Assembly (NCBI GenBank): GCA_001600635.1
Contig: BCKL01000003.1
Span: forward strand, 1,406,928-1,470,927
Length of the DNA stretch: 64,000 nt
Reading direction: 5' to 3'
Source of the DNA: Leucosporidium creatinivorum
Taxonomy: Eukaryota; Basidiomycota; Microbotryomycetes; Leucosporidiales; Leucosporidiaceae
The notes under the pieces are model-generated. The model worked only from the letters and a program-made list of their open reading frames with translations, searched no databases and was not told the origin of the DNA. A program made the translations under genes and the position numbers. Every line of letters starts with the position of its first letter. The stretch's first letter is position 1. Of the stretch, positions 32,215 through 58,235 are shown one piece after another.

Positions 32215-34507
32215 ATGCCCCCAGCAGTCATCCCCTACGACCCACCTCCTCGCTCGCGCGCCCGCTCCCGCTCGCGCACCCGCCTCTCCTCGGGGTTCGA
32301 GGCAGTCGAGCACTTGGCCCAGGACGCGAAAGGAATGGCCGCTGAGGTCGAGCGAGCAGCCAGGTTTGGGGAGACGATGGCGGAGGATTATCGGCAAGCA
32401 TACCCTGGGGGCTGGTTGAATGAGGAGGTGGGGACGGCGCCGAGGAAGGGGAGCAACAGGCGGAGGCAGGAGGAGCAGACGACGACGGATGAGGAGGTCG
32501 AGCAGTGGGAGGATCCGCCGAGCCCGAAGGAGAAGCAGAGAAAGGGCAGTAGGAGGACGATGGTCAGTGAGGGCAGTCAGGCGAGGAAGGGGAGCTTGAA
32601 GGGGAGGGTGAGTTTACTCGGCGAGGTTTGGCTTCGAGGAGGGCAGAGCTGACCCCTTCATGCTCGACAGTCACCACCTTGGATCCAATCCGATGACGGC
32701 TACCAATCTCTGGACACTTTCAAAGCAGCTGTACGTCTCTCATCTTGCCCAGCCGCGCCGAGCCTGACCCCTCCTCGGCGTGCGTCTACACAGCTCGCCG
32801 ACGCCCAATCCTTCGTCGACACCCTCCATTCCACCCTCCAAGAAATCGCGACCTACCGTTCCCGCCTCACCGGCTCGACCTACAGCACCAAGAAGTCCCT
32901 CCGCCGCTCTCGGCTCGCCGCCGAGCCCCTCACTCTGGTCGACGAGGAGCATCTCGCCTCTCTCACCACTAAAGCCCGGAAGGAGACCCTCCTCACCTAC
33001 CACACGATTCAAGCGCTCAAAGCCGAGTACCCCCTCTTCACCAAATCCTTCTCTTCCTCGCCTCAACTCCTCCCCTCCTCGGCCGAGTATAAGAAGTTGA
33101 CGAAGGGTCTCAACAAGTTGTATGGGGCTTTTGCGGATGTGTTGAACTTTGTAGAGGATAGGAAGGAGGAGGAAGTGCGGGATGGGGAGAATGGGAGTGC
33201 GGATCAGAGGTTGATGGCGTATGTGAGGGACGTCGAGCCGGCGTTGCAGGAGGAAGAGGTCTTGAGTGAGTTGAAGGCGGCGAAGAGGGAGGCGGCCAAG
33301 AAGGGGGTGGAGGAGCTCAAGGTGTGTATTCCACCTCACTCTTACATCGAGCTACATCTAGCTGACCCGACTTGAACGACTCGACAGCCCGAATCCTTCG
33401 CTCGGCGATGGGCGCTCGAACACCCCTTCACCGAGATCGACCACTCGCTGCAAGCTATCGATCTGCTCGAGCATGGGTTGTTCATGAAGCCTTCAGACAT
33501 CAAGAAGGGCACTCTGGGCGTCTGGGACAAGATCGGAGGGCTGTTGGTGAGTTTGTCTCTCTCTCGCCTGCTCGGCGCTCGCTAATCTCTCCTCGAACAG
33601 CACCCGTCGACCAAGATACCCGCTCCCAAACGCTCCTCCAAGCCCAAGAAGAAAGGCAAGAAGCCCAAGCAGCGTTACTTTGAGCTCGGCAAGGCGGGCA
33701 AGGGCGCCGAGAGTAGCGATGATTCGGATGCGAGTCTGCTCGGTCCTGACGGGCAGCTGCCCTATGCGTGAGTGCTTATGACTGCTCCTTGTTATTTGAG
33801 TACGTGAGCTGATCTCTCGCCTCCGTGCAGCGTGCCATCTGATGATCCCAACGCGTGAGCTCGGCGTTCTTCCAGTCTCCTTCACTCGCCGAGTTGCCCT
33901 CTCCCACGGACCCGTTCCGCTACAGAGTAATGATGTTAACTGACTGTCTTCCCACATCCATCAGCGTCGTCACAGTCGAGGATCAGCTTGACGATCTACG
34001 GCGCAAGAAGCGGCTAGAGCGGTGAGTCGCCTCGGGTCCTCCTCAGCCCTCGCCGAGCTGACTCCTCTTCGCGCGCAGGACCGCCCTCCCTTTCATCGTC
34101 CTCGAATGGTGCTTTTCTTTGCCCCTCTTATCTCCCTCTACCCTCGCTGACCCCCATCGAAACGACACAGGATCCTCATCGTCGCCCTCTACATCTACTG
34201 GTTCGTCGCCCGCCAGCTCGGCAACCCCAACCCACTCGGGAACGTCGATTTGGGTTCTCACTTCGGTGATGATGCATGGGGTGATACGACGGATGGACTT
34301 ATTCAGACGACGCTGATCGCTTCGGCGTCGGGAAGTGGGAATGGGACGGCCTCGGCGATGATGACCAGCGCGGGTGGCAGTTTGAGTGAGATAGGAGGAA
34401 CCGCTACAGCGACGGCGGAGGAAGGAGCGGCAGTGACGGCGATTCCTACCTCGACTGAGGCTTCCGAGGCGTCGAGTACGAGTTCGGCGAGCTCGACGGA
34501 TCCCTAG
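32215..34507 (+). CDS. Single-pass membrane protein, PFTE-motif family member A
   Basis: This gene is not recognised from any named family. Nine exons (32215-32607, 32671-32730, 32794-33321, 33388-33546, 33601-33767, 33831-33854, 33965-34021, 34079-34108, 34171-34507) give 584 aa with closing phases. The N-terminal ~130 residues are Arg/Ser-rich and disordered. Helical, coiled-coil-like sequence follows (FKAALADAQSFVDTLHSTL, KLTKGLNKLYGAFADVLNF, ALQEEEVLSELKAAKREAAK). Exon 4 then opens with PESFARRWALEHPFTEIDHS. A Lys-rich segment (RSSKPKKKGKKPKQRYFELG) and a short acidic part lead to one membrane segment assembled from exons 8-9: ALPFIVLEWILIVALYIYWF. A Ser/Thr/Ala-rich tail of ~95 residues ends the protein. 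Topology is probably N-terminus cytosolic with the tail lumenal or outside. It shares the PFTE block with the next gene and with the gene at 55774-58235. A role in membrane traffic is only a guess from the layout. Confidence 0.75.
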
Positions 34508-34879
34508 CTCGGCGAGGGGAGTTCGGTCAGTCGGTTTCACCGGCTTGCTTGGGGCTGAGCTGACCTTCTAAGTCGCAGGATGGCGTCTAAAGCTTATGAA
34601 GAGATTCAGAATAGATGATGGACTGTATTGCATCGCGTGAGCCAGCATTTTGAGAACGCCGAGCGAGCAGAGAGAATGAAGAGCCGCTTTCGTCGATCTT
34701 CAAGGCTTCGCTACAAGACAGCAGCAACAGAGATGGATTCCCGCTGCAGCACAATACATAAAGGTCGGAATCCCTTATTACACAGACTCGAGCAGGGGCC
34801 ACTCCGAGGAATTTGGACTGAGCTGTCTCTCTCAATGCGTCCCTTGTCTCCCACCACAACTTGACGACACTTCGACACC
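34508..34879 (+). other. Spacer between PFTE-family genes A and B
   Basis: These 372 bases hold the 3' UTR of gene A and the promoter of gene B. No ORF, repeat or RNA gene is seen. Confidence 0.4.
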
Positions 34880-36256
34880 ATGGAGTCTCTCCCTCCTCCT
34901 CCGACTGCTCCCAACACTGTAGCACCCCTCTCGTTCCCTCCTCCGCCTCCGCCCCCCGCCGCGGCTCAGCGACACTCGTCCATGTCCACCTCGATTCGCT
35001 CGTGGGAGAGCGTCGAGCCCAGCATCGACGACATCTCCCACGAGATCGCACAAGTCAAAGAAGAGCTCGCAGCCATCACTGACTCTGTAGAAGAGATCGA
35101 GCTCCTCCGCGACCAAGTCCGGGATTCGCCCCTCCCCTCGGCACAGCTCTTGCACCCTCTCAAGCAGCTCCAATCGTCGGTCACCTCCACCGGTTCGAGG
35201 ATCCTCTCCATCTCCTCCCCTCTCACCGCCGTCACCACCCGCGTCGCGTCCCTCTCCTCCCTCGCCGCCGAGGGCCGAGCAGCCGCTACTTCTCTCGAGA
35301 TTGCTCACGCGGAGGAGGAATTGGAGGTGGTCAGAATTGGCATTAAAGATGCGGTGGAGACTATCAAAGCTAGGGCGTTTGAGGAGGTCAAAGGGAGGGA
35401 AGAGGCGAGGGTGAGGTGGGAACAGAGGATGAGGGAGGAGAACCCTGGGATGGGGAAGGATTTGGTGCAGGGGAGTGTGAGGCAGGCGATGGAGAACGGG
35501 TCGAATAAGAAGGTGGCCCAGCTGGATGTGAGTTGTCTCGTTCTGCTGGCGAGATGAGAAGCAGAAGGCTGACCCAGCCGAACGCCGAAACAGCTGTCTT
35601 CCTACGCCGGTCGTTTCGCCGCCGAGAACCCTTTCACCGAGCTCGCCCATCTCGTCGATAACGCGCAAGATGTTCACCGTAGCAACACCATCTCTAGCAT
35701 CGGTAGCGAGGGTAGTATTGTGAGCCTTCTTCTCTCGTTCTCGAGCTCGGCCGAAGCTGATCGTCCTTCTTCGCCTGCCTGCAGCCCTTTAGCAAGCTCC
35801 TCAGCCGCGCCGGTTCACAGACCACACTCGTCGGCTCCATGCACACGGCCGATCGCTACGGCAAGCTCGAATCCGAAGTCGACCTCGAGAGTCAACCGCT
35901 CCAAGGTCTCGGCGGAAATGTGGGAGGAAATCAGGAGCATGTCGGGCCGCTCATGAGGAAGTGGGTCTATTTTAGGAAGAACTGGAGGGATGTGCTGGTG
36001 AGGACGGCAGTGGTGGTGGGCGTGGTGGGGACTGTGGTCACTATCATCGTTTGTGAGTTGGCTCGGTCATGACTGCTCGGCGTTGACGCGCGAGGGCTAG
36101 GGCAAGGGCTAGGGCGAGAAGCTGGAGCCCTCTGTCCTGCTACATGCACTGACCTGTTTTTGATGCCCAGGGGAGAGCATTCACCAAGGAGACAAGGACA
36201 AGGATTCGGCTCTTTCCTCCTCGGCGGCCATCGCGAAGCCTACTACAGTTTTCTAG
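34880..36256 (+). CDS. Single-pass membrane protein, PFTE-motif family member B
   Basis: Four exons (34880-35527, 35594-35719, 35785-36052, 36171-36256) give 375 aa with closing phases. A Pro-rich start (SFPPPPPPPAAAQ) leads into a long helical region: SIDDISHEIAQVKEELAAI, VEEIELLRDQVRDSPLPSAQ, TSLEIAHAEEELEVVRIGIK. Exon 2 begins LSSYAGRFAAENPFTELAHL, the motif shared with genes A and C. A juxtamembrane stretch (MRKWVYFRKNWRDVLVR) precedes one membrane segment (TAVVVGVVGTVVTIIVW) and a 29-residue polar tail ending AKPTTVF. Reading through the last donor would instead stop at 36072, but the intron 36053-36170 has GTGAGT, an ACTGACC branch site and CAG, so the four-exon form is preferred. The layout recalls a syntaxin, but I see no SNARE heptad core with its central Gln. 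Function unknown. Confidence 0.75.
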
Positions 36257-37439
36257 GTTCGATGGGCGATTCCGCAGACTGGGTGCAGCGTTGGACAGAA
36301 GTATCGAATCAAGCCGCTCTTGCTGCAGCAAGCGCCGGCCGAAGACAGGTGCAGAGAAAGGGCGAGCTGACGATCAGCGGGGAAGGGTGCCGAGCACATG
36401 GCAAGCGAGCGTGTCGTTTCGTCTCTTGCCTTGCCAGGGTTGTGGATGTCGCTGTTTGAGCAGGTGTTGTTCGAACATGGTGCAAAACCGTCCGCGAGCG
36501 GTCTACAGCTCATTGACCGAGCAGGCTGGCATCTCCCTGCTCATCAGCCTCGGCACGGCCAACAAGGGCAATCGTGAAAGCTGCGAGCGGTAAGCGTGAG
36601 CGAAAGGGTTAGCCCTCCCGAGCGAGCTTCTGTGCATCGTAGGCGGCTCGGCGAGCACGGCTGCTTCTCGGCGAAAGCTCGGGGTGGCCCCTTTGAGCTG
36701 CCTGCGAGCGTGATGAGGTGCAGCCGACGCGATGGCTGCTGTGCGAAGGAAAGCACTTGTGCTGCTGGCCGCCTGAGACCCGGGGAGCGAAAGTGTCGAT
36801 TGAGCAGAAGCATGGCAGAGAGTTCGAGGCCTCGCCGAATGAGCGGGGGAGGGCAAGCTTGATCGCGCTCCTTCACTTGCAGAGCACCCGCGGCCGCCTA
36901 TCGAGCTACATCTGTGTGCTGAGCTACACCTCAGCACTCCCTAGTACACCGCTACACCTTCGGCCCAACGGCACACCGACACTCTCGCTCGACGACCAGC
37001 GCTAGGTGCCCTGGAGAGCGAGCTAAAGCAAGTGCGGCCAGCTTCGACGCTCTGCTTTCGTCTACAACCTCTTTGCACAAACCTCTCGACGCTCGTATCA
37101 AATCGCCTACAGGAATCAGCACCGCCGTCGTCTTCTTCGGCTACAGCTCTTCGGCCCCTCCCACTGTTCAAGTTAGCTCGCCGAGTCGAGGAGAGCGAGC
37201 TTGGAGCGCGCACGAGTACCGCCTACTGAGGCTAGCTATACCACTAGGTGAGCAGGCTCGTTTCTGATCTCCTACAGCTTCCCTTTCGACTGCTAACTCG
37301 CTTTCCCTCCTTCCCCTTCTTTCCCCCGACTCGCTCACCGCTGGCTGCTGCTGCTCCGTTCGCTCTCATCGCCTTCGCCTTCCTTCGGCTTCGCTCTCGT
37401 ATCTCGGGCGCGTCTGGCTCGCTGTAGTGGACTCGCTAC
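36257..37439. other. Intergenic region upstream of MAK kinase
   Basis: These 1,183 bases contain no supportable gene. Small open frames on both strands lack recognisable domains and splice partners. Pyrimidine-rich sequence at 37270-37440 and a CTACAG at 37274-37279 suggest a 5' leader, perhaps with a leader intron, for the kinase gene. Confidence 0.4.
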
Positions 37440-40400
37440 ATGGTCCCGGCCGTAGCTACCAGCAGCTCATCCCTCGGCGGGCTCTTGAATCGTGTCTCCA
37501 TAGGAGGAGGAACAGGCGGAGGAGCTAGTTGGGACGCGTTTCGACACCGGCGAGGGAGCGACGGTCCTCCAGCTGCAGCGGCAGCTCCGCCTGTACCACA
37601 ACCGCAACCTCCCGTCAACGGGATCCCTTCAGGCGTCACCACTCCCGCCAGCGCCGAGTCGACGGGCGCCGTCGCCGCTCCTCACCGCGGAGACTCGGCG
37701 GCGACGATGGCAGCTCCACCTTCGGCCTCCGTAGCCAGCAATCCAGGTCGCGCCTTTCCTCCGCCATTGGAACCGAGGAGCTACACCATTCTCAAGGAAG
37801 TCGGCGATGGATCGTTTGGCACCGTCTGGCTCGCCGACTGGCATTCGCCCTTGCAGCTGCCGCCGGGCACGCTCCCTCCGGGGCCGAGCAGTCGACCAGA
37901 GTACAAGGGCAAGAAGCTGGTGGCGGTCAAGAGGATGAAGAAGCCGTTTGAGGGAGGTTGGGCCGAGTGTCTGCAGCTCAAGGAGCTCAAGGTGCGTTTT
38001 CCCGTTCGCAGGCCGAGCAGCCGATGCTAAGGGCGTGGAGCTGCTCTTCACGCGAGGAGCACGAGAGGCTGATCGACATCTCTCTTCGATACAACAGTCG
38101 CTTCAACAGATCCCGATGCACAGCAACATCATCCCCCTCTACGACGCCTTCCTCCTCCCCTCCACCAAAGAGCTCTACTTTGTGTTCGAATGTATGGAAG
38201 GCAACCTCTTTCAGCTCACCAAATCGCGCAAAGGACGACCCCTCGCCTCGGGCCTCATCGCCTCCATCTTTTACCAAATCCTCGCCGGCTTGGACCACAT
38301 CCACTCGGCCGGCTACTTTCACCGCGACATGAAGCCCGAGAACCTCCTCATCACCACCACCGGCCTCGCCGACTACCCTGCCTCCTCACTCTACGCCCTC
38401 CCCGGTACACCACCGGAAAAGGACGTCGTCGTGACCGTCAAGCTCGCCGATTTCGGCCTCGCTCGCGAGACGAACAGTCGGCCGCCCTACACCGAATACG
38501 TCTCGACTCGCTGGTATCGCGCGCCCGAGGTGCTGTTGAGGTCGCGGGAGTACTCGAATCCGGTGGACATGTGGGCGCTAGGGACGATCATGGTCGAGAT
38601 CCTCACCCTCAAGCCGCTGTTCCCCGGCGAGAACGAGGTGGAGCAGGTGTTCAAGATCTGTGAGGTGTTGGGCGATCCTTGTGCGGATTATGGGGTCGAT
38701 AGTCGAGGGAGGATACGAGGGGGAGGAGATTGGCCCAAGGGCATTAGGATGGCGAGGGCCGTTGGTTTTGCCTTTCCCAAGGTTCGTCGTTTCGCTCTCT
38801 TCTCGTCTCGGAGTCTCGCTGACCCTCTCTCGCTTACGCAGATCCCACCAAAAACATTCCAAACCATGTTCGACCAAAATACGGTCCCCATCCAGCTCAT
38901 CGACTGCATCGCCGACTGCCTCCGCTACAACCCTCGAGATCGCCTCACGCCGAAGGAGTGCCTCGACTCTGCCTATTTCCGCGAGGTCGCCTACCGCTAC
39001 GCACCTTATCGTCCTGCATCTGTTCGCACCACTCCTTCCACTTCCTCCTCCTCCTCACCGCACGGCACCCATCGCAACAGCTTGGCCCTCTCCATCAGCA
39101 CCGCCGCCTCCTCCCACGCACCGCCGATGCCTTCTCCTCGCGAGGTCCCTCCGTCGCACAGCAACCGCGATTCAGGTCATGTCCAACCTCCCTTCCGCCC
39201 TCAACTCCCCGGCCAGCAACTTCCTCCCGCCAACGGCTTCCCCTACCCCGACTCGGCCTCTGCCTCGCCAGCCAACCCTCGACAAAACTCAGACACCTCT
39301 ATGGTCTCGGGCATGTCGGGCTACGCCATGCACGTCAACCCACCACCAGGAGAGGACGGCTCGTACGACTCGCCGATGGCTTCGTTCCCCGAGAGCGTCA
39401 GCCAGTCGACCTCGCCCACGCCGAGCTCGGTTTGGAACGGTCAGGTCGATCCTTCGTGGGGCGCTCAGCAGCCGAGAGCACCACCAGTCTTTGGTGCTCC
39501 GGTCGGAGGAGGTCGTCGTGGATCGTTCAGTGGATCTATCGCCCCTTCCCTCGCGCCTTCGACCTTCTACGACGGCTCGGTCTACGAGGGAGTTCCGTCG
39601 AACCGAGCTCCGTCGGTCATGTCCTTCCCCTTCGGCAACCTCGACAACGGCTCTCCCACCTTCGACGAGTCGCCTACGATGGGCAACACCGGAGGCTTCG
39701 ATCCGCAAGCTTCGTCGAGTCAGCAGCAACTCCCTCCCGCCAGTCTCGCTCCTCCGGCGCCATCCGTCAAGTCGGGTCGATGGGGAGGATTCGGCAAGGC
39801 CTTCTCTTCCAACAATTCGCACGCTCCCGTCGCCTCAACCAGCGCCTCGCCGATGCTCCCTCAGACGAGCCAGAACCCTCTCAAGCGGACGCCTTCCAAC
39901 GCTTCGCAGAGGGAGCAGCAGCAGCAGCAGCAGCAACCGGCCGACGTCGAGATGCCTCGAGCTCCCCTCGATCCGAAGAAGGCCAAGAAGGAGGCCAAGG
40001 AAGCCGAGAAGGCCAGGCGCGATGCCCTGCAGCAGGCGCAGAGGGAGCGCGCTCGTGCCGTCATGAAGAAGAAGAACCAGCTCGCCGAGGCGGCCGACCC
40101 GCTCAACAACTTCAGCAACCAGACGAGGCAGGCGCCGGTGGACAAAGGCAAGCATCGCGCGGCGGATCAGCGGTCGTTAGCGCCCTCCTCGGCGTCGATC
40201 GTCAATGCGCAGATGCCGAGGATCGTGGAGGATACGTCGAGGCTGCATGTGTCGGACATGCGACACAAGGCGCGTCGCAGGGATGTGGACGACGATGTGC
40301 ACTCGGTCTCGAGCAACGAGACGGGTCATTCGTCCCATCGCGGTCGGCCGTTTTCCGTCTCGGGCATCTCCATCTCCTCGGTCGCTACTTCGGCGTCCGA

Positions 40401-41007
40401 CCCCGAACGTCGCTCGCAACATACCTACGACGTTACGCCTCAGCGCGTACCCTCTCTCTCGTCCATCACGTCCTCCTCCTCTCGGCCTTATCACCACCAA
40501 AGCGGCTTCCGACACCACGTCCCTCCTCCCTCCACCGGTCACTCCTCACTCGACCACTCCCTCATCGCCAACATGCAAGGTCTCGCCACCTCCAACGACG
40601 GTCTACGCTCCCCCTCCGCTCGTTCCGAGCGCTCCGACTCGCGAGGAGCCCGAGCTTCCTCCCCCCGAGACTCGCATTCACATCACGAGCAACAGCGCTA
40701 CTCGCCCTACCCCTTCCCCAACGGCACATCTTCCTCCTCAAACCGTTCGCCCGGCCCCCAACTCCCCCCAATCACCAATTTCGACCCCAGCCAGTACCGA
40801 ACGAAATCGAGCGCCGCGAGCGTCGCTTCCTTCCGTTCGACGCCTTCGACCCTCCCCTCCTACCTCGGCAGACCGTCGATGGAGAACCCTGCGGCGGCGA
40901 TTGGGGGACAGCTGCCGCCGGGGAGGCAGTATGCGTTGAATGACTCGGTCGGCAAGCTGTCGGGAGGGTCGACGTTCCCTTCGCCACCGCCGCCGCCCAA
41001 CTCGTAG
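37440..41007 (+). CDS. MAK/RCK-family Ser/Thr kinase (Ime2/Crk1-like)
   Basis: Kinases of this CMGC branch act in meiosis entry, mating and morphogenesis (yeast Ime2, Ustilago Crk1). Three exons (37440-37991, 38098-38781, 38842-41007) give 1,133 aa. An Ala/Pro-rich N-terminus of ~117 residues precedes the kinase domain at about 118-470. Its motifs are YTILKEVGDGSFGTVWLA, VAVKRMKKPF, SNIIPLYDAFLLPSTKELYF, FHRDMKPENLLIT, VKLADFGLARE and the MAP-kinase-like activation motif TEYVSTRWYRAPEVLL. The final ~660 residues are Ser/Pro/Gln-rich and disordered, with a Gln run and a Lys/Ala-rich coiled coil (KKAKKEAKEAEKARRDAL). The Thr-x-Tyr loop implies dual phosphorylation by an upstream CDK-activating-type kinase, as known for the family. 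The insertions around the ATP-binding lobe (HSPLQLPPGTLPPGPSS) lengthen the domain. Confidence 0.9.
39916..39939 (+). repeat. CAG repeat encoding polyGln in MAK kinase tail
   Basis: Seven CAG codons followed by CAA encode eight consecutive Gln residues. The array is in frame and lies in the disordered tail, so it is a typical slippage microsatellite. Confidence 0.9.
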
Positions 41008-41379
41008 GGTTGGGATGAACCATAGCTCGGGCTCTCTATTCGCTTGTTCTCTCCCTCCTCTCTCATTATCCTCCTCTACATTAGAACTCTTCCACCCTCC
41101 CTTCTTCGTTCCCTCCTCCGCCCATTTTCAGTGTACCCTCATTACCCCCAACACTTCTCTTCGCGGTGACTCTCGTTCACTCGCCTAGCAGCTGCAACTT
41201 CATTGTCGTTACAAACAGATCCTAGTGAGAGCCAACAGCCGAGCAGAGCCCAGCGCCGAGAGAGCTTCAATTCGAAGTAAGAAAAGAATTGCGAGTAAGA
41301 ACCGAGTAACAAACTTGGTCGCGCCCTCCAGCGCCCGAGGTCTCTCTCCTCCAACCCGCTCCGCCTCTTTCGCTCGAAG
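41008..41379 (+). other. Spacer between MAK kinase and NUP192
   Basis: These 372 bases hold the kinase 3' UTR and the NUP192 promoter. The sequence near 41270-41310 is AT-richer (aagtaagaaaagaattgcg). No gene is seen. Confidence 0.4.
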
Positions 41380-44300
41380 ATGGCGCTGGCGATGGATCGC
41401 TTTGAGCGACTACACTCGTTCTTGGAGGACATTCTCGCCAACCCTCAGGACGACCCTGCGACCGTCTCGAAACTGCAGCTCAAGCTAGAGCGAGCTCGAC
41501 CTCTCTTCCTCGCCTTGCTCGACACTCCACCAAAAGATCCTAAAGAACGGCAGCAGCTCGAAAAGGGTGAGTTGTAGCTTCATATCACGACTAGCAGCTT
41601 CTGTCGAGCTGCAGTACAGAGCCCAGAGCTGAATCGTCACTTCTCTCTCGCCCGCTTGTTGTGTGAGCAGGCAGCTTCACCTACGTCGTCACGGGCACGA
41701 CCTACTCGGCTGGCCCAGCGCTCGCCAAAGAGATCCTCTTCCTCTCGGATGCCATCAACGCCTCGGAGGACTTCTCCGCCTCGCTGGTCTCGTACGGCAT
41801 CAACGCCAAACCTCGCAGCGGCCTAGGGCGCGCAGAGAGCGGCCTCGTCGTCTTCCTCGACGAGCGGGCGGCTCTCATTCAGAGTCTGCAGGCCATTTGG
41901 CGGGGAGCGCTCTCGGCCGACGAGCGACTGGCTGCCTCGGGCATTCAGCGCGTGTTGGAGAAGGAGACGGAGGAGCTCACGAGGGGCAAGGGCGCCGAGG
42001 TGGTCATCGACCCTGCTACCAAGCGTAAGGGAACGTGGATCGAAAAGATTATCGACTCGTTGGACAAGTGCAAGAAGCAGGCCGACTCGCTTCGCAGCTC
42101 GTTGCGCCAACCGGTTCCTTCCAACGCGCTCGCGACGACCGCTTCCCTCCACGGCGCCTCCTTCTCCGATGAGACGACACAGATGCGCATCCAACGCTTC
42201 GAGGAGGAGCGCCGCTCGTTGGGCCAATTGCTCTTCCTCATCGGCGCAGGACGACACATGGCCAAGAGCGACATTCAACTCCTCCTTCGCCAGCTCAGCC
42301 AGGCTCCCTCCACCGACAGCGCCGTCGTCTACATCCTCATCTCCCTCCTCGCCGCCCTCGATGTCTCGGACCCCGCCGCCGCTCAGCAGCTCTACCCTCT
42401 CTTCTCCGACTCCTCCTTCGTCAACACGGTCACGCAAACTCTCGCCGGCAACTGGACCGTACCGCACCTCAAGGCCACCATTCAACTCCAATGGGCTACC
42501 TTCCTCGATACCGCCGCCAAGTACGTCGCCAACTTTGAAACGGATGGCGGAGAGCTGGTTGATACGCTCGTCGGCGAGGCCATCGACGCTGGAGTCTTTG
42601 CCTTCCTCGGCAAGGCGGTACTTCGGTACAAGTGGGACGCGGAGCTCGAAGGCGTGTGGAAGAGCCTCGGAGGCGAGATCGCACCGCTGGGAGGAGAGGT
42701 GCCCGTCGACGCCTGGTTCCAGGAGTACGTGACCGAGCAGCTCGAGATCCTCGTCCTGGACGTCATTACGAGCAAGTTCACCGCTCTGCGCAAGCTGAGG
42801 AATAGGGAGGAGGACGTCGTTGCCAGCTCGCATCGTGGAGGAGGGCACCGAGCTGCCAGGGGAGCGCAGGACGACCGGCCGCTCGAGGTCAGGCATGATC
42901 TCGAGGCCTTCTTCATCCTCATCGCCACCATCTACCGCGGCGCCCCCGACAATGGCCTCAAGTTTTGGGAGGAGGTCGTGATCGACGACCACTCGACTTC
43001 GCCGCCCAACCCCATCACCGCCAAGCTCTCCTCCTTCCTTCGCTGGGGCGCCGAGTGCCGCTCGTCGGGCATGAAGCGCGCCTACTACGAGATGGTCGCT
43101 TCCCTCGCCTCGGGACCTCGCAGCGCAACATACGCTCATGAGCTCCTCGCTGCCTCGAGCGGATCCCTCGACCACAACGGCGCTTCCGCTGCCGCCTTCT
43201 CCTGGTCCACCCTCTTCGGCGCCCTCCGCTACTACCTCGACAACCTTCCCACCGTTGAGGCTGTCCTCGAGAGTGGGCTTGACTCGGCATCAGCGCAAGG
43301 AGGCATTCCGCCCGAGGAGAGCCCCCTCCTCCAATCCTTCGTCCGAGTCCTTCGCCAAGTCGTCGCCTTCTCCGACGTCGCTCGCGCCACTCTGTACGAC
43401 AACCAGACCCACCGACCTGTAGCCGTCCTCTTCGGTCTGCTCGGTCGCAACATCGACCTCGACCTCAAGGCGACTCTGCTCGGCACTATCGCTGCCTTCT
43501 CGCGCCCAGGAGGAACGACTGGAGTCGACGTCGCGAGGAGGACTTGGACTGCTCTCGAGCTGAGTCAGATCCTGCCGACGCATGCGCCGATGGACTCAAG
43601 GAATGGAGCAGGACTCGCCACCAGCCACGGCATCTTCAGCGGACCAGGACAACTCGCCGTGCAGGGAGGCATCCTCACCGAGCTCGTGCAGGTGGAAGGA
43701 CCGGGAGGAAGGTACCCTCAGTCGACCGCCTTCGTCGAGCTCCTCAACACCCTCATCCACGTCCCTTCGACCATCGAGCCCATCCGGCGCGGCATCGAGA
43801 TCGACACTCAGACGATTCCCGACAATCTCGGCGCGCCTCAGCGTGCTCCCGGCGTCGACCCCTACGTCAAGTTCGTCATCGAAGACGTGCTCCTCAAGGC
43901 TGGAGAGAGGGACTACCATGACCCTAGGGAGCGATGGGCCGTCACCGACGTCTGCCTCGAGTTTGTCGAGAAGTCGCTCGTCAGCTTCGACCTGGGCCCC
44001 TTCCTCGCTTGGGCAGCCGTCGGAGGCCAACGCGCCGCCAGCGCACCCACGTCGCCTCTCACCCAACTCCTCCTCCACCCCGGCTTCGACCTCCTCGCTC
44101 GCATCCTCAGCGCCTCCCCTCTCCTCGAGAACGTCTTCACCATCATCACCGCCGGCCTCGAGTCGATTCGCAACAACCTCGCTGGCACTCCCCTCTTCAC
44201 CAGCTGCATGCTCCGCTGCATGCGCATCCTCCGCCGCACGTTCGAGCTCCAGGCTCCCTTCCTCGAGGTCGTCCTTCCCTCTCTCGCCGAGAGCACCCTC

Positions 44301-47300
44301 CCCATCCCCCAGGACAAGCTCAACCGCCTCAAGAGCGTCGTTCCCGTCGACCAGTCGCTCCTCTACCATTCGGAGGCCGTCGTCCAGATCGCGCTGCTCA
44401 TCAGCTGCACCGAGGAGGACGAAATCGCCCTCCTCGCCGTCCAAATCCTCGCCGTCATCGCCGAATCGCCCTTCTTCGATGTCGTCCAGAAGTTCCCCGA
44501 GCAGTCGCGCGTCAAGCTCAACCGTCTCGTAGGACTCCTCCAGGCTTCGTCCGAGACGCTGAGGATCCTCGACGGCGTCACTATGCGCTTGGAGGAGGAC
44601 GTCCCCGAGTCGGATCTCGATCTCGGCGAGTGGGATGGCCCTCACGGCGAGGCGTCGGGAAGCATTCGCCAGGCGATCAAGTCGGCCATCCTCGATTTGC
44701 TGCTGCAGAGCACTCAGCCTGGACGCCCAGGACCCAATATCGCCCATCTCCTGCTCGGCTTCAACGTCCAAGGACGCCCCGACGACATGGAGATTGAGGA
44801 TCCCGAGGCCGCCGACACGCAGAAGACCAGTCTGCACGCCATCCTCGATTTGCTCGCTGAGAACGTCTCCTCGAGCGCGGACGTTGACGTTCAGGTGAGC
44901 TTCGCCCGCTCTTGCCCTTCGCGCTCTCCGCTGACCTCTGTTCTCTCACAGCTCTCCATCCTCGCTCGTCACCCCACCTTTGCCGCCAAGTGCTACCGAC
45001 TCGTTCGCCAGCTTTGCCTGCACAAGTACACTTCGGCCGTCCTCTCCCGCTACCTCCGCAACCGCGAGAAGTTCTTCCTCACCCAAACTCTCGCCCTGCC
45101 CTTTTCCGTCCCCGCCGCTTCGCAAGGAGCGCTCGGCGCCGTTCAGTACTCGGATCGTCGACAGGTCGTCACCTCCAGCTCGGCCGTCTGTGCCATCCTC
45201 CAGTCCGAGGCATGGCTCCTCGAGTCCACCGCCCTCGAGCTCAACGTCCTCGCTGCTGGCAACGACACTCGCCGCGAGGTCGAGCTCGTCGGTGCGCTGT
45301 TCGAAAACCCTACGATGGCAACGGCCGAGGACGTACCCGCCTACTTCGACCAGGGTGGGCTCGAACAGGCTCTCCCTCGAATGCTCGAGATCTTCCATTC
45401 GTTCGACTTTGCCTGGGAGGACTCCATCCAGCCCAACGACTACCGCCTTGACTTCTTCGCCGAGCTCAAGTTTGACTCGTGCCTCAAGACCGACACCACC
45501 GGCTGCGAGGTCTACGACTTTGGCGCCCTCCTTTCGCTTCTCGGCGCCGCACGTCGCGAGCTGCAGAACCGCGGGGTGCTCAACACTCAGGCGCAGCAGG
45601 AGGAGGCCAAGAAGGAGACTCGCGCCATCGTCGAGACGCTCGTCATCGAGAACCACCGTCGGGAGATCCAGTTCGCTCGCTTCCACGCTCTCCGCGCCTG
45701 GCGCAGCCTCCTCGACATTACCCTCACCAAGGCGTTCCACCTCCTCCCCGCCGAAGGTCGCCACTCTCTCCTCCTCGACCTCATGTCGTCCATCCTCCCT
45801 CCCCTCGCCGCTCAAGAGACCGACCAGGCCATCAGCGAGCTGCTCAGCGGCGCCGCCGTCCTCCTCATGACCAAGCTCCGTGACGAAGGCATTCGCGTCG
45901 TCTTCCTTGAGTCGGCCGACTCGGTGCAGTCTGTCTCCCCCGAGCGTCTACACGCCGTCCTCCGCGCCATTCTCCAAGCCATCCTCCAGCCTGGCGTCTC
46001 CCCCGTCGTTCGCGGCAACCTCTACGCCGTCCTCCTCAACTACATCCAGTACTCGTCCAAGATGGCTTCCCTCTCTCCCGCCCTCGCTCGTAACCTCCCC
46101 GCTGGATCGACTACCGGAGACGACTCGATGTCGGTGGCCGGCGACGACCTCATCTCCCTCGACGGCGCCTCCACCGTCGGCGGCACTCGTCGCTCGTCGA
46201 GGAAGAATGCGCTCGAGTCGGGCAACTTCGCCGTCTTACAATCGGCCATCGATCGTCTACTCCCAGTGATCTGCAGGGATGCAGCGGTCGGCCACGAGGT
46301 GTGGAGGACAGTCGCCTTCACCGCGCTTGACGCTCTCGTCATGGTCGCCGAACAAGGAAGGGCCGTCGGCAAGGTCCTCAGCATCCTCACCAAGCAGGGC
46401 TACCTCCAGAGCTTTGTCGCATCGCTCAAGGACGCCGAGGCGGATCTGCAAGAGGCGCTCAAGCCCGATCCTGGTGAGTTCCGAGCCGGCTCGGCTTCAT
46501 TGCGCGCTCGCTGACCTTACGCCTCCTCCGTAGAATCGCTCAACGCTCTCTACATTTACGAGGCGCAGATGTCGTTCCTCACAAGGCTGGCGTCGACTCG
46601 CGAGGGAGCCGAGAAGCTCATGAACGTCGAGCTGCTGAGTCGGCTGGCAGAGTGTGACTACCTCGGCGCAAGGCCGTTGGAAGAGGCTGCACCAATGGGT
46701 GAGCTATCAATGCTCTCTCCCTGCGTGCTGTTCGAGCTGACCTCTCGCACCTCCGCAGACTTCGACGGCTTCCTTCCGCCCGCTACTGAGCGTCATCACC
46801 AGCTCCTTCTTCCCGCGCTACAGCTCGTCGTCGGCGTTCTCGTCTCGTTCGGCTCAGACACTGCTGTCGCTACTCGCCAGGTATGTACCCTCTTTCGCTC
46901 CGACTTGACCCACGCTGACTCGTCTCCTCCCAGGCCACCGCTTTCGTCGGAGGCCAGCGCGAGAACCTCCTCATCGCCCTCAAGGACTGCGCAACTACTC
47001 AGACCGTCTACTCGCTGCGGGAAGCGCACCTCATCGTGACCATGCTTGGCTTCATCCTGCCCTCGGTCGCCGAGGAGGACTTGGTGCGTTTACTTCTCCT
47101 TCGCCGAACGAACCCCGCTGACCTAATCTTACCGCAGACCACACTATCGTCCTTCGGCGGCCTGCATGCGGCTCTTCTCGGTCTCTCCGCTAAGATCTGC
47201 GGTCCTCAAGACTGGGTCGCCAAGGTTCTGCCATCAAGCGACGTCGAGCGGGAGGAGGATCAGACTCTAGTTCTCGGTGCGCTTGCTCACTCCGTCTTGT

Positions 47301-48362: not shown

Positions 48363-48581
48363 GAGGTAGATGTCTAATTGCAAAACTAGCTGTTATATCC
48401 ACTCTTCGCTGCCAAGCTAGCAGATTAAATTGGCGAGATGGATTTCGCGCGTCGACGTCGAACGCGAAATGAGATTTCGTTGGCGTCTTTTGCCTTCCTC
48501 CTCATCGTTCTTCGTCGCCTCTCGACTCCCCGGCACCTCCTCTACACTTCTACATCACTACTCAGCCACCTACAGCTCACC

Positions 48582-49151: not shown

Positions 49152-49377
49152 GGGAGCGTCTCGTCTTGTTGTAAGGTATCCTCGGTCGCGCCTGACCCTC
49201 GGCGACGTGAGACGAGAACGGCAAGTGGAGCTCCAGGTTCAGACCACTTTCTCTTTCTCCCTTCTACCACATTCTCTCCTCGTTACGCTTCATCAACTGC
49301 TATCTCACAACTTTCCTCGCCTCACTCTCCCGCCCCGTCCGCCGCCGCCGCCGACACCTCCCCTCCCCCCTCGAAGG

Positions 49378-51412: not shown

Positions 51413-51640
51413 AGTAAGACGAAGAGGACCCTGAAGATTCCGAGTAGGATTAGAGTGCGCAAACTGCAGGGCTTTCAATCGCCGAAACTTGCCTCGTCAT
51501 TTCGCTCGGCGAAGTCGAACTTCGGCGCTCTTGATTCGGGTTCGATGCGAGTCAGAGGCGTGTTGCAAGCGAATAAACGTCCAGCGTATACAGATGTAGA
51601 GAAAGAGCAATTTGACGTCCGTCACTTCGACCATCAAGGC

Positions 51641-54600
51641 CTACTCGTCGCTGCTGGACCCTCCCCCTCCGACGCGGCTCACCATCCTCGACACCAGACT
51701 TCTCGCTCCACCTCCTCCACTAGGCCTGTTTCCCGCCCTCCGATACCCCATCTCCCGTCGCGCTCTACCACTCGTCGTGTCCTCCCGGCTCTCGACACCC
51801 TCGCCCTCGCCCTGCTCGACCGAGCTGTTCCCTCGCTCGCGAATGACGGCAAGATCAGGCTTCCTCGGCGCCTGTGGAGGAGATCGAGGCTTCTCGAAAG
51901 GGTGAAGAGGGTCGTAGGTAGATCCGCTGGTAGCTGTCGCGTCCGAATCACTGCCTCCTTCGAGTTGCTGTCGGCGATGGCAGTCGAGTGGGGAGATGGA
52001 GGCGGTCGAGGCGGGGCTGGGAGAGGAAGTCGAGTCGCCGGAGGAGGGGAGAGGGCGGGTGTAGTAGGAAGGGATGATGGGACGAGGACGAGGTGCCCCA
52101 AGACGAAGGGCTCCAGGACGAGGGTTGAGAGGGAGGCCGCCGGTGAGGGAGCTGATGGAGCTGATGGAGCCGACTTGGCTTATCGCGTGGGCATTGCGAC
52201 GGCGATCCTCGTCCTGATCTGGTCGAGAAGGGATGAGTCGTCCAGGCTCGTCAACGCGAAGCTTGCTGTCCTGGCGAGTGAGCGTCGGCGGTGAGGCTTG
52301 AGGTGGCTCGGTGGTCGAGCCTCGGTCTTCGGCAGTCGGTGCCCTCCTCATCGCCATCTCCTCAAGGACTGCCTCCAGGGTGTCCTCCTCCCTCTCCGAG
52401 CTGCTGCCTGCCGCACCCGAGCCTCGCGATCCGACCGCCTGCGCCTGCTCGGCTGGAAGAGCTCGACCGGCGAGCTCCAGCCTCAGCCTCTCGGCGGCAG
52501 CCTCGCACTCTTTCGAGACGATGAGCGAGGTGACGTTAATTCCTTCCGCCTCGACTCCCAAGTCCTCCTTGTCTCCCTCATCGCCCGGCATAGCCATGCT
52601 GTCGAGGCTCGCCCTCTCCTCCGTTCTCGTCGACAATGAGCTCTCCCCCTCGCGCCTGTCCGAGAGCAGAGCTCGAGGCGGGAGAAGCTCAAACTCGAGT
52701 CCTTCCTGAGTAACGACTTGTCCATGAGAGCTGGTGGTCGTGCGATGGGAAGCTTGTCGAGAGGGGTCGGATTTCGCCGTCGGCGAGTAGGTCGAAGGCC
52801 GAGTGGAGCTGTGAGCGGGAGAGACGGGCGTAGGAGTCGACGATCCATGCTCAGACGATGAATGAGGCTCGGAGGCCTTTTGGAGAGGACAGGGAGGAGG
52901 AGGAGGGAACTCAGAGAGTGAGAGCGAGCTCGTGTTCGTCGCGAGAGAGGCGGAGGAGTGTCGTTCGAGAGGGCATGGAGAAGGGTCGCCGCTTCCATTG
53001 CGCGCCTCAATGCTGGTGAACGTGTTGACCGTATTATCGCTTCCGTCGACAGGCTGCATCCCGGGACGTTGCGAGTCGTGTTGAGGGACTACTCGGTCCT
53101 TCGGCGAGTGCTTCTCGCTGGCGACGAAGGGGTCGGGGTGGCCGTGCGGTGCCGGAGTAAAAGAGGGAAGCGAGTCCACCCTCCTGGGGAACGAGTCGTC
53201 GACCGGTACGACAGCAGGGCGAGGCTTGGTGATCCTGAGCGTGGCGTCGGAGACACCTCGTGAGTGAGCCGGCGTGAAGATGGGGAGAGGCGGCATGGGA
53301 GTGTCGTCAGAGGGAGGTGGGCGCTGGGGAGGGACGATCCTGGAGGAAGCTCGACTCGTGCGTCGACTGATGGCGTCGAGCTCGCGCTGTTGCTGCAGGA
53401 GATGGCGCTGGATGGCAAAGTCGAGGTCGAGATCCGCCGAGTCGAGGCGTGAGAAGCGAAGGTCGGTGAAGCCGAGTAATGCTGATGGTCTGGGAGAGTG
53501 GTGCGCGGAAGAGCGAGGTCGAGTAGTCCGATCGGAAGGAATGACGCCTGCGCCGAGTGATCTGACTCGGTCGTCCAGCTCGAGCTGCTCTTCCCCGCTC
53601 CTCTTACCTCCATCCCGGCGTCTATCCTCCACTGAAGCCACCTCCCTCAGAGTCTGCTTCTCTCCAAGAGGTGCAGCGCCTGCCGTGAGTGAATGGCGGG
53701 CGTCCTCATCCTCGGCGATGCCTCCTTCCTCCATCTCCCGCTCCCTCGCCTGTGCCGACCGACTCCTGAGCCACGAAGGCACCCTTGAGTCTCTTCTGAC
53801 TACGATGCCTTCCGATAGCGTGGGTGTACGCGGTAAAGGCTTGCCTTCGTACTCGGTCGTGAGACTGCCGCCGTCGACGCAATCGCCGAAGGAGGCGGAG
53901 GAGGTTCTGCGAGGAGGGTAGGAGCGTGATGCGGGCTTGTCGAAGGAGGCAGAGTTGTCGGTCGGTCTATGAAAGTCGCAGATGGCAGACTCAAGGAGGA
54001 AGATGTACTGCGAGCGGGGAAGGGAGAGCAGAGGGTAGGCGATCAGCTCCGGCGCTTCGACTGAGAGCAGCAAAGCAGCTCACCATCTCGCTGAGGAGGA
54101 AGAAGCGACCGAGAGGTGTCTCCGAGAAGAGAAGAAGAGAAGGGACCAGTGAGACGATGGCGACGATGATGGCGAGGAGGATGCCGAAGAGGAGAGGACC
54201 GAGTCTGTGTGTGTAGGGAGTCAAGCTGGGGCGAGTGTCTCGGACAGAAGACCGAGAAAGCAGAAGAGCAAGCGCGAGTCTGAGGTGAGTCCAACAGATC
54301 ACTCACGAGAGGAGATTGCGCCGACGAGGGAGCGAGTCGACCGCCGAGGTCGCGAGGATGGTTTTGAAGGCGAAGAAGACGAGTAGAACGAGCTGCAGCG
54401 CATTGGAAGCGTCGTAGACACCTCGGAATCCCCCAACACTGTCCTCGACGAAACAATCAGCCATTTCGTTCGGCCTACCAGACTGCGCCGAGCTCACCTC
54501 TCGCCCAACCTCGACCTCCAGACCGAGTCGGTCACCCCGATCACGAGGATAGCCGCCCAGGTCGCCACTTCCATGAACGCACCAAGCACTCCCCATTTAC

Positions 54601-55347
54601 CCCAGCTCCCACTCTGCAGGTATTCAGCTCGACCTCTCTTCGCAAGCCCAGGGCGAGCGAGCAACCACCAAGCGGCGCCTTCTGCCCGAAGATGATCTCG
54701 TGGGGCGGCCGTAGGGAGGGTCGAAAACGTGGGTGAGTCGTGAAAGGTGGCTCGAGTGCAGCGGCGGTAGAGGAAGATGAGCTTGAAGGTGAGGGACGAG
54801 GCGAGAGCGAGGCCTGCTGACACCAAGGATCAGCTCTCCTCGCTTGCTCGCCTCGGTCGACCTTCAGCGGCTTGTCGAGACGCACCTTGAGCAACACGGA
54901 TACTTCGGTCCATCTCCAGCTGTCCGAAGTACTCTGCACGAAGCGCGCCGAAGAGCTGAAGAATGCCGCCGAGCAGCGCGAAGCCACAAGCGACGAAGAG
55001 GTCGATGAAGGCGCTGTGGGAGATCCGTCGACAATTTATCAGCTCTCTGATCTTGTATCTGAAGCACCTCAGCTTCTCGCTCCCTCCACAGCACTCTCAG
55101 CACGCTTGCCGCTCCAATCCAGCTCGTCGCGCTCGGTCTCACGCTCGACTCACCGATTAACCCTCCCACTACTCAGCTGAATCGCCGCAATCGCAATCCC
55201 CACTAACCCCACCGCCAGCAACGGGAAACTCGCGAGGATCTCCTGCACCTCCGGAGCGGACGAGAAGAGAGTCGACCAAGGGAGGGCTGTAGTGCTTAAG
55301 TCGGAGGAGAAGTTGGAGGGGGCAGAAGAGTAAGATGAACGGGACAT
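51641..55347 (-). CDS. Orphan protein with about seven membrane segments and long Ser-rich tail
   Basis: Six exons (55347-55154, 55013-54886, 54816-54498, 54438-54307, 54204-54084, 54007-51641) give 1,086 aa with closing phases. Hydrophobic segments in order: FPLLAVGLVGIAIAAIQL, LFVACGFALLGGILQLFGAL, LALASSLTFKLIFLY, FMEVATWAAILVIGVTDSVW, LQLVLLVFFAFKTILATSAV, LFGILLAIIVAIVSLVPSLL, and FFLLSEM/YIFLLESAICDF. A ~780-residue Ser/Pro/Arg-rich hydrophilic tail follows. The introns all lie in the membrane part. Seven passes plus a large cytosolic tail is the layout of receptor-like sensors such as PalH/Rim21 and the basidiomycete pH sensor Rra1. I cannot confirm sequence similarity to either. The tail has many basic-Ser motifs that kinases could phosphorylate. 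Alternative: a fungus-specific eisosome or cell-wall membrane protein. Confidence 0.72.
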
Positions 55348-55773
55348 GCTGCAGTGGACTCCCTCGAGAGGCGACTAGCGCATCCCGAGCTTTGAGAGAC
55401 GACTTGAGATGAAAGAGCGACGAGATGAGACGAGAGAGGCGAGCTGTAGGGCAGTGCACGGCAGGTCAGCAGATGTCTGGCGAGCTACAGAGCTAGGTGT
55501 GCCTCACTTGAGGCAGAGCGACGCCGTCAAGGCGCTGTGGTCGAAGCAAAGGAGGATCAGGCGATTTGATCTCGACGCTGCAGCTCGGCCCACTCGCCTC
55601 GGGCGCTACTCGGCACTCGCAGTGCTCCGGACAGTAGCGCGATTTAAACAGTCCATAGTGATGTATAGCAGTCTAACCAGTGACCTGTCGCTCCTAACTC
55701 CCTTTCCCCTCCCGCTCTCTCTGCTTCTGCCGCCGCTCTGAGCTCAGCTCTTCTCTGCCAGCATCGAGCCACT
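55348..55773 (-). other. Spacer between PFTE-family gene C and the 7TM-like gene
   Basis: These 426 bases hold the promoter of the 7TM-like gene and the 3' UTR of gene C. No ORF with support, repeat or RNA gene is seen. Confidence 0.4.
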
Positions 55774-58235
55774 TCAAGAGGAGTGCTCCTCTACTCCCCA
55801 GCGCCAGCCTCCCGTCGTCGTCGTCGTCGCAGCTTGTCCGCCCTGGCTCGGACTCGTCGCCTGCGCCGAGTTCGCCGAAGGTGTCGATTCCCACCGCGCA
55901 GCGTCACTAGTGGTCAAGGTGCTGGTCGACTCGGTAGAAGGTGAGGAGGTGGACTTCGAGCCGGAAGAGGTGGAACTGGTGCTGGTCGATTGCGAGGTCG
56001 GCGAAGTGGATTCGGTCGAGCTGGTGCTGGCGCTGAAGGTAGTGAAACCGTCGTCGGAGAAGGGCACTGTTTCTCCAGTGGTAAGTGATTGGTGGTAGAG
56101 TCCATCGTCGAAGGAATTGCTCGACGAGCTGGAGGTCGAGTTGTCCAGGCCGAGGTGCGCCGAGTCGGAGAAGGAGGTGTTCTTGTGCATGGCGAGGATG
56201 ACGAAGAGGACGAGGGCGGCGATGATGACTATTGAAGGGCGAGGAGAAAAGGGAAGAGGGAAGAGGAGAAGCAAGTTAGCGACTGGCGGCTCGGCGAGCA
56301 GGATAATCAGCAACACGAACCGAGGAGGAGGGCAATGACCATCTTTTTGCGCTGTTGAGGGTGAGCGGAGAAGAACATGATGTATTAACAAGATGAGGAG
56401 CAAGAGAAGGAGCGAAACGTTAGCAACTGAACTCCATTGCCTCCGAGCTCGGCGCCGACCAAAACCAGACACTCACCGACCGAACCCTCTGCCCCTGCTG
56501 CATCTTCGCGTACCCATACTCGATATCCTTCTCCCGCATATAATCCTGCGCTCGAGCATACTTGAATTGCCCTTGCGAGACGGGCTGACCTCGCATCATG
56601 GCAGCCGAGGAGGCCGAGGTCTTGCCTCTGAACCCTCCCGAGGTGCGCACAAAGTCGTTCAGCGAGGCATGAGGTTTCTTGGAGCGGGTGGAGGAGCGGC
56701 GAGTGAACTGCGATGTGTTGGTGGATCAGCTCGGCGAGTTCGGAGGCAGAGGAGAAGTGAAAGACGTACGGCGTTGGGATCGTCCAGGACCTTGATTACA
56801 CGCTTCTTGGCCGACTTGCCGGTGACCGTATCGACGATCTCGCGGTCCAAGCCGTCGTGAAGGAAGTCCATGCCGTTTGTAAGCTCTGCGAGTTCGGTGA
56901 AGGGGTTGCGCAACGCCCACAGACCGGCGTAGGAGCTGTGCGAGGTCACATCGGTCAGCGAGGCCTCTTGAGCATGATCTCGGTCCGCAAGACCTCTCTA
57001 GCAGATCTCCAAACCCCAAAGGAAAGGTGTACAAGACCAGGCAACTCACGTAACATCGCTCTGCGCCACTCCATCCGCCGCGCCGAGCTCAGCCGCCTTG
57101 AGCAACTTGCGCACCTCCTCGTCCTCCATGTCCGGCTCGCGGCTCCTCATATGCCTAGCCATCCAAATACGCGTACGCTCGCGACGCTCCTCCTCCTTCC
57201 ACGCGCCTTCGCGGATTCGTTCCATCGCATCGGCGAAGTCCTGCCAGCGCCGAGGACGGGTCAGCAATGTGCGATGAGGAGGAGCGAAGAGAGCAAGGTA
57301 GATCTCACCATCTTAGCGCTCGCCAGCTGGTACTTGATCTCTCCGACCTCCTGCAGCGTAGCATGCACGCTTCCCTCCTTGATCCACTTCCTCAGCATCG
57401 AGCTCCACTGCTTCAACCTCGTCAACCAGACCTCGAGGGAGACGATGGTTCTCCCTGACTGAGTAGTGAGGGCCGAGAGAGCCTGCATATCGGCGCGTAG
57501 AGAGACTTGGCCGACATCCTCGGAGGGTTTGAGGGAGGCGATTTGGTTGCGGAGGGCGACGATTTGGTCGACGTCGTTCTCGAGAGCGTCGATTGAGTGT
57601 GTGAGGTCGTAGCACTGTTTATGGGAAGAGACGACGTCAGCGGTGTAGGCCGAGGAGCGCCAAAATCGGCAGCGCCGAGACGAACTTGGGCGAGGAATTG
57701 CTCCATGTCGGGGGTCTGTAGGTGGTCAGAGGTCAGCTCGAACGTACTCCGTACACACGCGTACACATGCCGAACTCACATGAGCAACAGCGGGCTCTTC
57801 CTGCCCCTTACTCTGCCTCCCCTCCCTCCTCGTCCTGCGATCCGCCTGCTCATCCTCCCTCATCTGCCCAGCAGGGCCGACTCCAACATCGCTCCCATTC
57901 CCATCATACACCACTCCATCCCTCGTACCCCTGCCGCCCTTGGCCTGGCGGTCCGCCTCCTCGTCGCTGTACGTCGAGCGGTCCAGATCGTCGTACAGCT
58001 TGACCAGCGGCGTCTGTAGCTGCCTCTCGCCATCCGTGAAGCATGCTCCGTCGTTGTAGGGAACGCCCTCGTTTTGGAAGCTGGTGCGCGAGGCGGAGAA
58101 TGATCCTCTACGGGGCAGCGACGACGAGCGAAAGACGGTGGGAGCGGAAGCTGAGGCCGAGAAAGAGCGGGAGCGTCCCCTCTTGACGATTGGAGGGTCG
58201 TAGAGGGTCGACTCCTCGTCGTCATGGTACGACAT
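55774..58235 (-). CDS. Single-pass membrane protein, PFTE-motif family member C
   Basis: Eight exons (58235-57780, 57715-57686, 57614-57309, 57240-57050, 56935-56770, 56707-56477, 56351-56321, 56228-55774) give 621 aa with closing phases. The N-terminal ~150 residues are polar and disordered. Helical sequence follows: DLTHSIDALENDVDQIVALR, LEVWLTRLKQWSSMLRKWIK, FADAMERIREGAWKEEERRE. Exon 5 then opens with the shared motif TSYAGLWALRNPFTELAELT, followed by GMDFLHDGLDREIVDTVTGK. A basic, Gln-containing stretch (RAQDYMREKDIEYGYAKMQQ) leads to one membrane segment built from exons 7-8: MVIALLLVIIAALVLFVILA. The tail of ~135 residues is extremely Ser/Thr-rich, as expected of an O-glycosylated lumenal or extracellular segment. 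It is related to genes A (32215) and B (34880) by the motif and by domain order. Function unknown; a membrane-traffic role is a guess. Confidence 0.75.

Follow-up and report, generated by a model that had tools for sequence, protein, structure and literature searches.

Does a cluster of membrane-protein genes in the basidiomycete Leucosporidium creatinivorum represent a new system, or the remains of a known one? The genes lie in a stretch of 64,000 nucleotides (nt) (contig BCKL01000003.1, positions 1,406,928 to 1,470,927; our contig C3), referred to below in its whole length as the window, and are labelled A (32215-34507, + strand), B (34880-36256, +) and C (58235-55774, -). A first-pass annotation, made from the sequence alone, regarded them as an undescribed family with a shared PFTE block and a candidate new system; profile and genome searches speak against an unrelated new family, and identify A, B and C, very probably, as diverged paralogues of the syntaxins. 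Relatives were sought in this one genome (27.7 Mb), whose syntaxin genes are called S1 to S4. Its short introns, its GC content of about 60% and its Sso-type syntaxins fit a basidiomycete yeast.

Probable syntaxin ancestry of the three proteins

The resemblance among the three proteins extends well beyond the block by which they were recognised. A six-frame genome search with 41 amino acids (aa) around the block of C returned three places at E<=10 among the best candidates scored: C itself, B (E 0.01) and A (E 0.055). Smith-Waterman comparisons over 214-231 residues gave scores of 211 for B-C (z 28, 30% identity), 141 for A-C (z 19, 24%) and 107 for A-B (z 11, 21%), none of them reached by any of 300 shuffles. 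By these comparisons the block match is above chance (the block is nearly identical in the alignment of A, B and C), and the likeness reaches about 200 residues upstream of it. The picture of a locally clustered, strongly diverged family of three members is supported.

The N-termini of A (32236-32274 +, aa 8-20) and C (58202-58164 -, aa 12-24) have YDPP...R.RSRS in common (13 aligned residues, equalled by 1 of 1000 shuffles), a motif that B does not carry and that is possibly a shared N-peptide.

Pfam Syntaxin (PF00804) scored above its cut-off at four places in the genome, S1 and S3 (contig C33), S2 (C5) and S4 (C12), and S3, the only one of the four compared with the PDB, matched yeast Sso1 (E 1.3e-21). 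The Pfam SNARE family was over its cut-off at S1 and S3, under it at S4 (21.3 bits) and did not list S2; for S2 and S4 the motif was identified in exon translations. Four PF00804 places seem many for a yeast, and the genes of S1 and S3 lie about 13 kb apart on the same contig.

The link to these genes was found in both directions. When the 214-aa region of C was used in a six-frame genome search, seven matches were obtained, three of which were C's own exons, followed by B (6e-9) and by the S3 exon at C33:19344-19811 (2.2e-7); no unrelated place scored better than 0.036. Exon 1 of B gave 12 matches, headed by itself, C (0.016) and S3 (0.021) and then an unrelated place with four stops (0.028), because of which this search lends the S3 link weak support. 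A profile of S1-S4 was run against A, B and C together with 431 window frames, 900 shuffles and 3 reversals, 1337 sequences in all, and recovered C at 1e-9 and B at 2.3e-5, with the best decoy at 0.15; conversely, an A/B/C profile run against S1-S4, 431 window frames and 800 shuffles recovered S3 at 1e-15 and S1 at 1.6e-4 (best decoy 0.029). A profile of S3 alone found C (3e-10; the two are 26% identical) and B (0.0014), and the alignment of the A/B/C profile with that of S1-S4 (hhalign; S3 entered 4 residues short and S4 1 short) had a probability of 97.4 and an E-value of 1.6e-11.

Gene structure points the same way. A phase-0 intron in helix Ha, which follows FFAE in S1, FFDE in S3 and FYDE in S4, occupies the same ungapped column in C (between FLAQ and CYD) and in A (between FKAA and LAD); in the gene models compared it is not present in B or S2.

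The fold of B was predicted with AlphaFold2 (AF2), run on this protein only and with an alignment built from window sequences alone. Residues 38-216 were modelled with a predicted local distance difference test score (pLDDT) of 76 and a predicted template modelling score (pTM) of 0.62, as helices of 34, 44, 50 and 14 residues. Foldseek returned 582 PDB matches at E<=10, and among the 50 listed chains 11 were syntaxin or Sso (probabilities 0.98-1.00, best syntaxin at rank 5) and two more were scaffolds with 1EZ3 in their title. We take this predicted structure as agreeing with a syntaxin fold and not as proof of it.

An Habc region is hence indicated in C and B by profile and genome searches (in B also by AF2 and Foldseek), and in A via B, C and the intron; the case for descent from syntaxins is good for B and C, and reaches A through them. 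Where the first-pass annotation saw a syntaxin likeness in layout only, the helical part appears, by the same searches, homologous to the Habc region of S3.

Gene models and probable loss of the SNARE motif

The three genes were spliced by hand from the sequence, and the coordinates of their features were taken from the exons of these models. Each model is open from ATG to stop, all introns are GT-AG and each of the 21 exons is in frame; the genes lie at the originally proposed positions and strands, and the three blocks read exactly as first quoted. In 16 of the 18 introns a CTRAY branch site occurs 19-30 nt upstream of the acceptor, and the remaining two, both in C, have such sites at -72 and at -51/-82. 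The GC content at third codon positions (GC3) is 0.75 in A, 0.72 in B and 0.77 in C, and 0.74 in the adjacent kinase gene. The features are as follows.

32215-34507, +: gene A, 9 exons, 584 aa, with a charged N-terminus, an Habc-like region, the block, one transmembrane segment and a 98-aa Ser/Thr-rich tail (splicing, translation, hydropathy, branch sites)
32794-33321, +: exon 3 of A, 176 aa, which encodes the Habc-like region with its post-Hc linker; the intron directly ahead of it is the phase-0 intron in Ha
33394-33444, +: block of A, SFARRWALEHPFTEIDH (translation)
34092-34210, +: predicted transmembrane segment of A, aa 468-486, split by an intron (hydropathy, KD19 2.28)
34880-36256, +: gene B, 4 exons, 375 aa
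34880-35527, +: exon 1 of B, proline-rich N-terminus and the entire Habc-like domain (AF2, Foldseek, phmmer against the PDB)
35600-35650, +: block of B, SYAGRFAAENPFTELAH (translation)
35995-36051, +: predicted transmembrane segment of B, aa 329-347 (hydropathy, KD19 2.37)
55774-58235, -: gene C, 8 exons, 621 aa, of the three the nearest to syntaxin
57050-57715, -: exons 2-4 of C, Habc-like domain; the phase-0 intron follows MEQFLAQ
56884-56934, -: block of C, SYAGLWALRNPFTELAE, running into a putative SNARE stump, TELAELTNGMDFL, aligned to TELAQLFNDMAVL of S3
56194-56342, -: predicted transmembrane segment of C, aa 464-482, split by an intron (hydropathy, KD19 3.56)
55777-56193, -: Ser/Thr-rich tail of C, 139 aa, 48% Ser/Thr, two N-x-S/T sequons

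Each protein has exactly one strong hydrophobic stretch (KD19 2.28-3.56, the second-best reaching only 0.62-1.06), flanked by basic residues on its N-terminal side, and by hydropathy all three carry the C-terminal transmembrane anchor of a syntaxin. The tail behind it measures 98 aa in A (31% Ser/Thr), 28 aa in B (25%) and 139 aa in C (48%); thus, of the proposed layout of one membrane segment and a polar Ser/Thr tail, the single segment holds throughout and the long tail holds for A and C, and not for B. In C the tail would be extracytosolic. With the exon joins that we infer, syntaxins S3 and S4 apparently also continue beyond the membrane segment with some 50 aa rich in Ser, Thr, Pro and Ala. 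The tails of A and C may be foreshadowed in that of S3, with a wall-facing function added.

No SNARE motif was recognised in any of the three. Pfam SNARE had no match at E<=10 on the spliced proteins, SNARE-half and SNARE-core profiles of S1-S4 did not place A, B or C in the top 8, and a six-frame genome-wide SNARE search gave 9 places, none within the window. The syntaxin motif of about 53 residues with its zero-layer Gln is absent from A, B and C: at the column that we take to be the zero-layer Gln, C and A have Leu and B is gapped, and between block and membrane there are 98-125 residues with 14-22 Pro and Gly, as against 60-64 residues with 1-3 in S1-S4.

What the block represents is most legible in C, where RNPFTELAELTNGM stands opposite ERTLTELAQLFNDM of S3, at the start of the SNARE motif, and the likeness to S3 continues for about 20 residues (z 5.4, 0/500 shuffles). 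Among 12 comparisons of the block-to-membrane regions with S1-S4 only this one beat all 500 shuffles; the next, B-S3, was equalled by 25/500, and a stump is not clear in B or A. On this alignment the PFTE block is, in C, the junction with a SNARE stump; its first reading as the free-standing motif of a new system is not supported. An apparent deletion of 13 residues at the block is no longer claimed firmly, since the gap shifts once LLHG is restored to S3 and one residue to S4; TEL of PFTEL stays aligned with TEL of TLTEL in S3 after the shift. The intron directly before the block may correspond to the one after F(S/A)(Q/E)A in S1-S4, and was not used as proof because the match depends on gap placement and the phases differ (2 in C, 0 in A and B).

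Judged by these sequence criteria, A, B and C are not SNAREs, though descended from one, and very probably lack SNARE function. The syntaxin-like layout without a SNARE core that had been noted at the outset is upheld, save for the short stump in C. Neither the Pfam Syntaxin nor the Pfam SNARE profile fires on A, B or C (a scan of the three full proteins gave sub-threshold matches only). Among these matches, Sec8_N (E 0.16) and the EXOC6 N-terminal family (E 0.5), both on B, were taken as chance.

At the other end of the syntaxins, S1, S2 and S3 have M(S/A)RDRL encoded ahead of their Habc exons, presumably in exon 1. N-terminal peptides of this DR type have a role in binding Sec1/Munc18 (SM) proteins.

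A possible role and its alternatives

We favour, with moderate confidence, an explanation of the whole in which syntaxin paralogues lost their SNARE motif and became non-fusogenic regulators. A gene like S3 (Sso/syntaxin-1 type) would have been duplicated, and its copy duplicated again locally, probably in this order, followed by strong divergence. The copies would have kept their Habc domain, post-Hc linker and membrane anchor, and would have had the SNARE motif truncated beyond its first heptads, a Pro/Gly-containing linker taking its place. A protein with Habc and anchor and without a SNARE motif cannot occupy the Qa place of the SNARE complex. Since the motif is lost and the DRL peptide is missing, A, B and C should therefore neither form a SNARE complex nor drive fusion. 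They would reside on secretory or plasma membranes, with Habc facing the cytosol and the Ser/Thr-rich tail on the outer side, and may occupy or recruit the binding partners of true syntaxins (a tether, an SM protein or cargo), or bind those syntaxins; exocytosis would then be tuned or localised by membrane-anchored, non-fusogenic Habc modules. Excerpts of a study of Sso2 describe its Habc as inhibitory and its helical bundle and N-terminus as binding Sec3 (PMC9427108). With an inhibitory Habc in Sso2, a SNARE-less Habc on an anchor is thus likeliest to be non-fusogenic; the particular regulatory role in exocytosis worded above we put forward tentatively, as a possibility short of probable.

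Several observations weigh against this interpretation. A was outside the listed top 8 of every syntaxin profile, its exon 3 found only itself in the genome, its score against S1 was weak (z 3.9, 2/500 shuffles), and against S3 and S4 it scored no better than chance would (z 0.1; 225/500 and 221/500 shuffles as good). Its membership would depend on its likeness to B and C, on the Ha intron that it has in common with C and the syntaxins, and on the weak S1 score. For the family, the A/B/C profile left S4 amid decoys (0.37) and S2 outside the top 8; S1 alone as query had none of the three within its top 8, and a syntaxin profile without S3 gave B 0.009 and C 0.56, the latter amid decoys. As the links to B and C weaken once S3 is left out, S3 is the bridge. 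The tree split of A/B/C from S1-S4 had a support of only 76/88, with very long branches. Against PDB sequences, the A/B/C profile found coiled coils and no syntaxin, and phmmer found syntaxin-1A at only E 0.64 with B and no relevant match with C or A. Three-helix bundles are common folds; designed bundles and MIC60 outranked the syntaxins in Foldseek, where no E-value was below 0.015 (none reached 0.001), and in a first AF2 model of B that included the N-terminal extension (pLDDT 65) Sso2 ranked 9 and no match was significant. The silence of the window in the SNARE search is weak evidence alone, because the search also missed S2, where an intron interrupts the motif. Lastly, no M(S/A)RDRL was found in A, B or C, or for S4, and NPY motifs, which bind Sec3 according to excerpts of PMC9427108, are not present in A, B or C; the lack of both speaks against strong binding of SM proteins or Sec3 via those routes.

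That the three might be unrelated coiled-coil or three-helix proteins, syntaxin-like by composition only, could be argued from the missing Pfam match over cut-off, the Foldseek E-values above 0.01 and the fact that A alone is not clearly like any syntaxin. We consider it highly improbable, for S3 ranks first outside the family when C is compared with composition-preserving shuffles, window frames and the whole genome, and an intron position and phase are common to C, A and the syntaxins. It is likewise improbable, if less so, that they are relics, decaying duplicates with no selected function: strong divergence, long branches and the loss of the fusion half would fit, yet the 21 in-frame exons with GT-AG sites, the GC3 of 0.72-0.77, like that of the neighbouring kinase gene (0.74), and a block nearly unchanged across the three tell against decay.

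Other readings grant the ancestry and change the function. As inhibitory decoys, the orphan Habc domains would bind in trans the free SNARE motif of S1-S4, or opening factors, so that syntaxins are held closed and fusion is lowered at chosen membrane sites. At least four PF00804-type syntaxin genes are available to be so regulated, and the excerpts of PMC9427108 describe Habc as the domain that inhibits Sso2, but at a divergence as high as that of C and S3 (26% identity) the bundle surface may survive only in part, and we regard the decoy function as unlikely, though worth keeping in view. Somewhat more doubtful is that an O-mannosylated tail works in the cell wall, Habc serving mainly to direct or tether the protein to sites of exocytosis. 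The tails of C (139 aa, 48% Ser/Thr) and A (98 aa, 31%) suit this, and since S3 seemingly ends in about 55 aa rich in Ser, Thr, Pro and Ala, such tails may have been inherited and then lengthened; the tail of B, however, has only 28 aa, no signal-like hydrophobic stretch is found at the N-terminus (second-best KD19 0.62-1.06), tail composition is poorly specific and the topology is a conjecture. Wall sensors of the Wsc/Mid2 type have an N-terminal signal peptide ahead of the outer Ser/Thr-rich domain; A, B and C, in contrast, have no second hydrophobic stretch, and their Ser/Thr-rich part is C-terminal to the sole transmembrane candidate. Rather unlikely, too, is a version in which the orphan Habc family links cell-wall state with the sites at which true syntaxins are permitted to fuse vesicles, through a transmembrane anchor in the surface membrane and a mucin-like outer tail (in two of the three members), as a Qa-SNARE counterpart of the phytolongins.

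Returning to the reading as non-fusogenic syntaxin paralogues, A, B and C share with the secretory syntaxins (Sso1/Sso2, syntaxin-1; PF00804 plus PF05739; here S1-S4) the Habc region, the post-Hc linker, the start of the SNARE motif and one C-terminal transmembrane segment; C and A share the Ha intron position as well, and a Ser/Thr/Pro/Ala-rich tail seems present in S3. They differ in a SNARE motif that ends after the first heptads, without zero-layer Gln, in the lack of a detectable DRL N-peptide, and in the 98-125 aa that run from block to membrane where the SNARE helix would be.

Among longins, SEC22A and SEC22C are further members without a SNARE motif, besides the phytolongins. The phytolongins, described in excerpts of PMC2779197 as non-SNARE longins of land plants, retain the N-terminal regulatory domain and transmembrane segment of a SNARE and have the SNARE motif swapped for another region; going by these excerpts they derive from R-SNAREs with a longin domain, whereas A, B and C are fungal, would derive from a Qa-SNARE with Habc and have a long Ser/Thr-rich tail in A and C. 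The Pfam scan of the three proteins detected no longin family at E<=10, their domain being Habc-like. Loss of the SNARE motif with the regulatory domain kept is hence known for R-SNAREs, and A, B and C would be the Qa-SNARE (syntaxin) case. Lgl and Sro7/Sro77, of the tomosyn line, have likewise lost their SNARE motif, or let it degenerate, and retained the regulatory part, but are beta-propeller proteins and not syntaxins, and tomosyn is described without a membrane anchor (excerpts of PMC2639358). The i-SNAREs, for which negative regulation of fusion is proposed, are comparable in effect; in the excerpts of PMC3627133 they are proposed to inhibit as SNAREs, by entering or binding SNARE complexes, unlike A, B and C, which have no SNARE motif.

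According to excerpts of a fungal SNARE survey, secretory syntaxins were duplicated recurrently, mostly with little divergence, and the classification relies solely on the SNARE motif (PMC2639358), so such inventories cannot see relatives that lost it. Among the open-access papers listed, judged by title and the opening of the abstract, none was found to describe a syntaxin family without a SNARE motif, subscription journals being mostly outside that scope. If syntaxins, like longins, gave rise to stable non-SNARE families, Habc would be selectable apart from its own SNARE motif, and A, B and C would allow its role to be tested in isolation.

Pfam assignments for 19 further frames of the window (a kinase, Nup192, PIG-N, an adenylate sensor, a BTB domain and one weak match to an oxidoreductase) suggest no pathway. 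Gene C adjoins a Ser-rich open reading frame of 1041 aa (58960-62085, +) with no Pfam match at E<=0.01, and between the A/B pair and C the Nup192 nucleoporin is encoded in a single open frame (41667-46511, +; Pfam E 2e-224).

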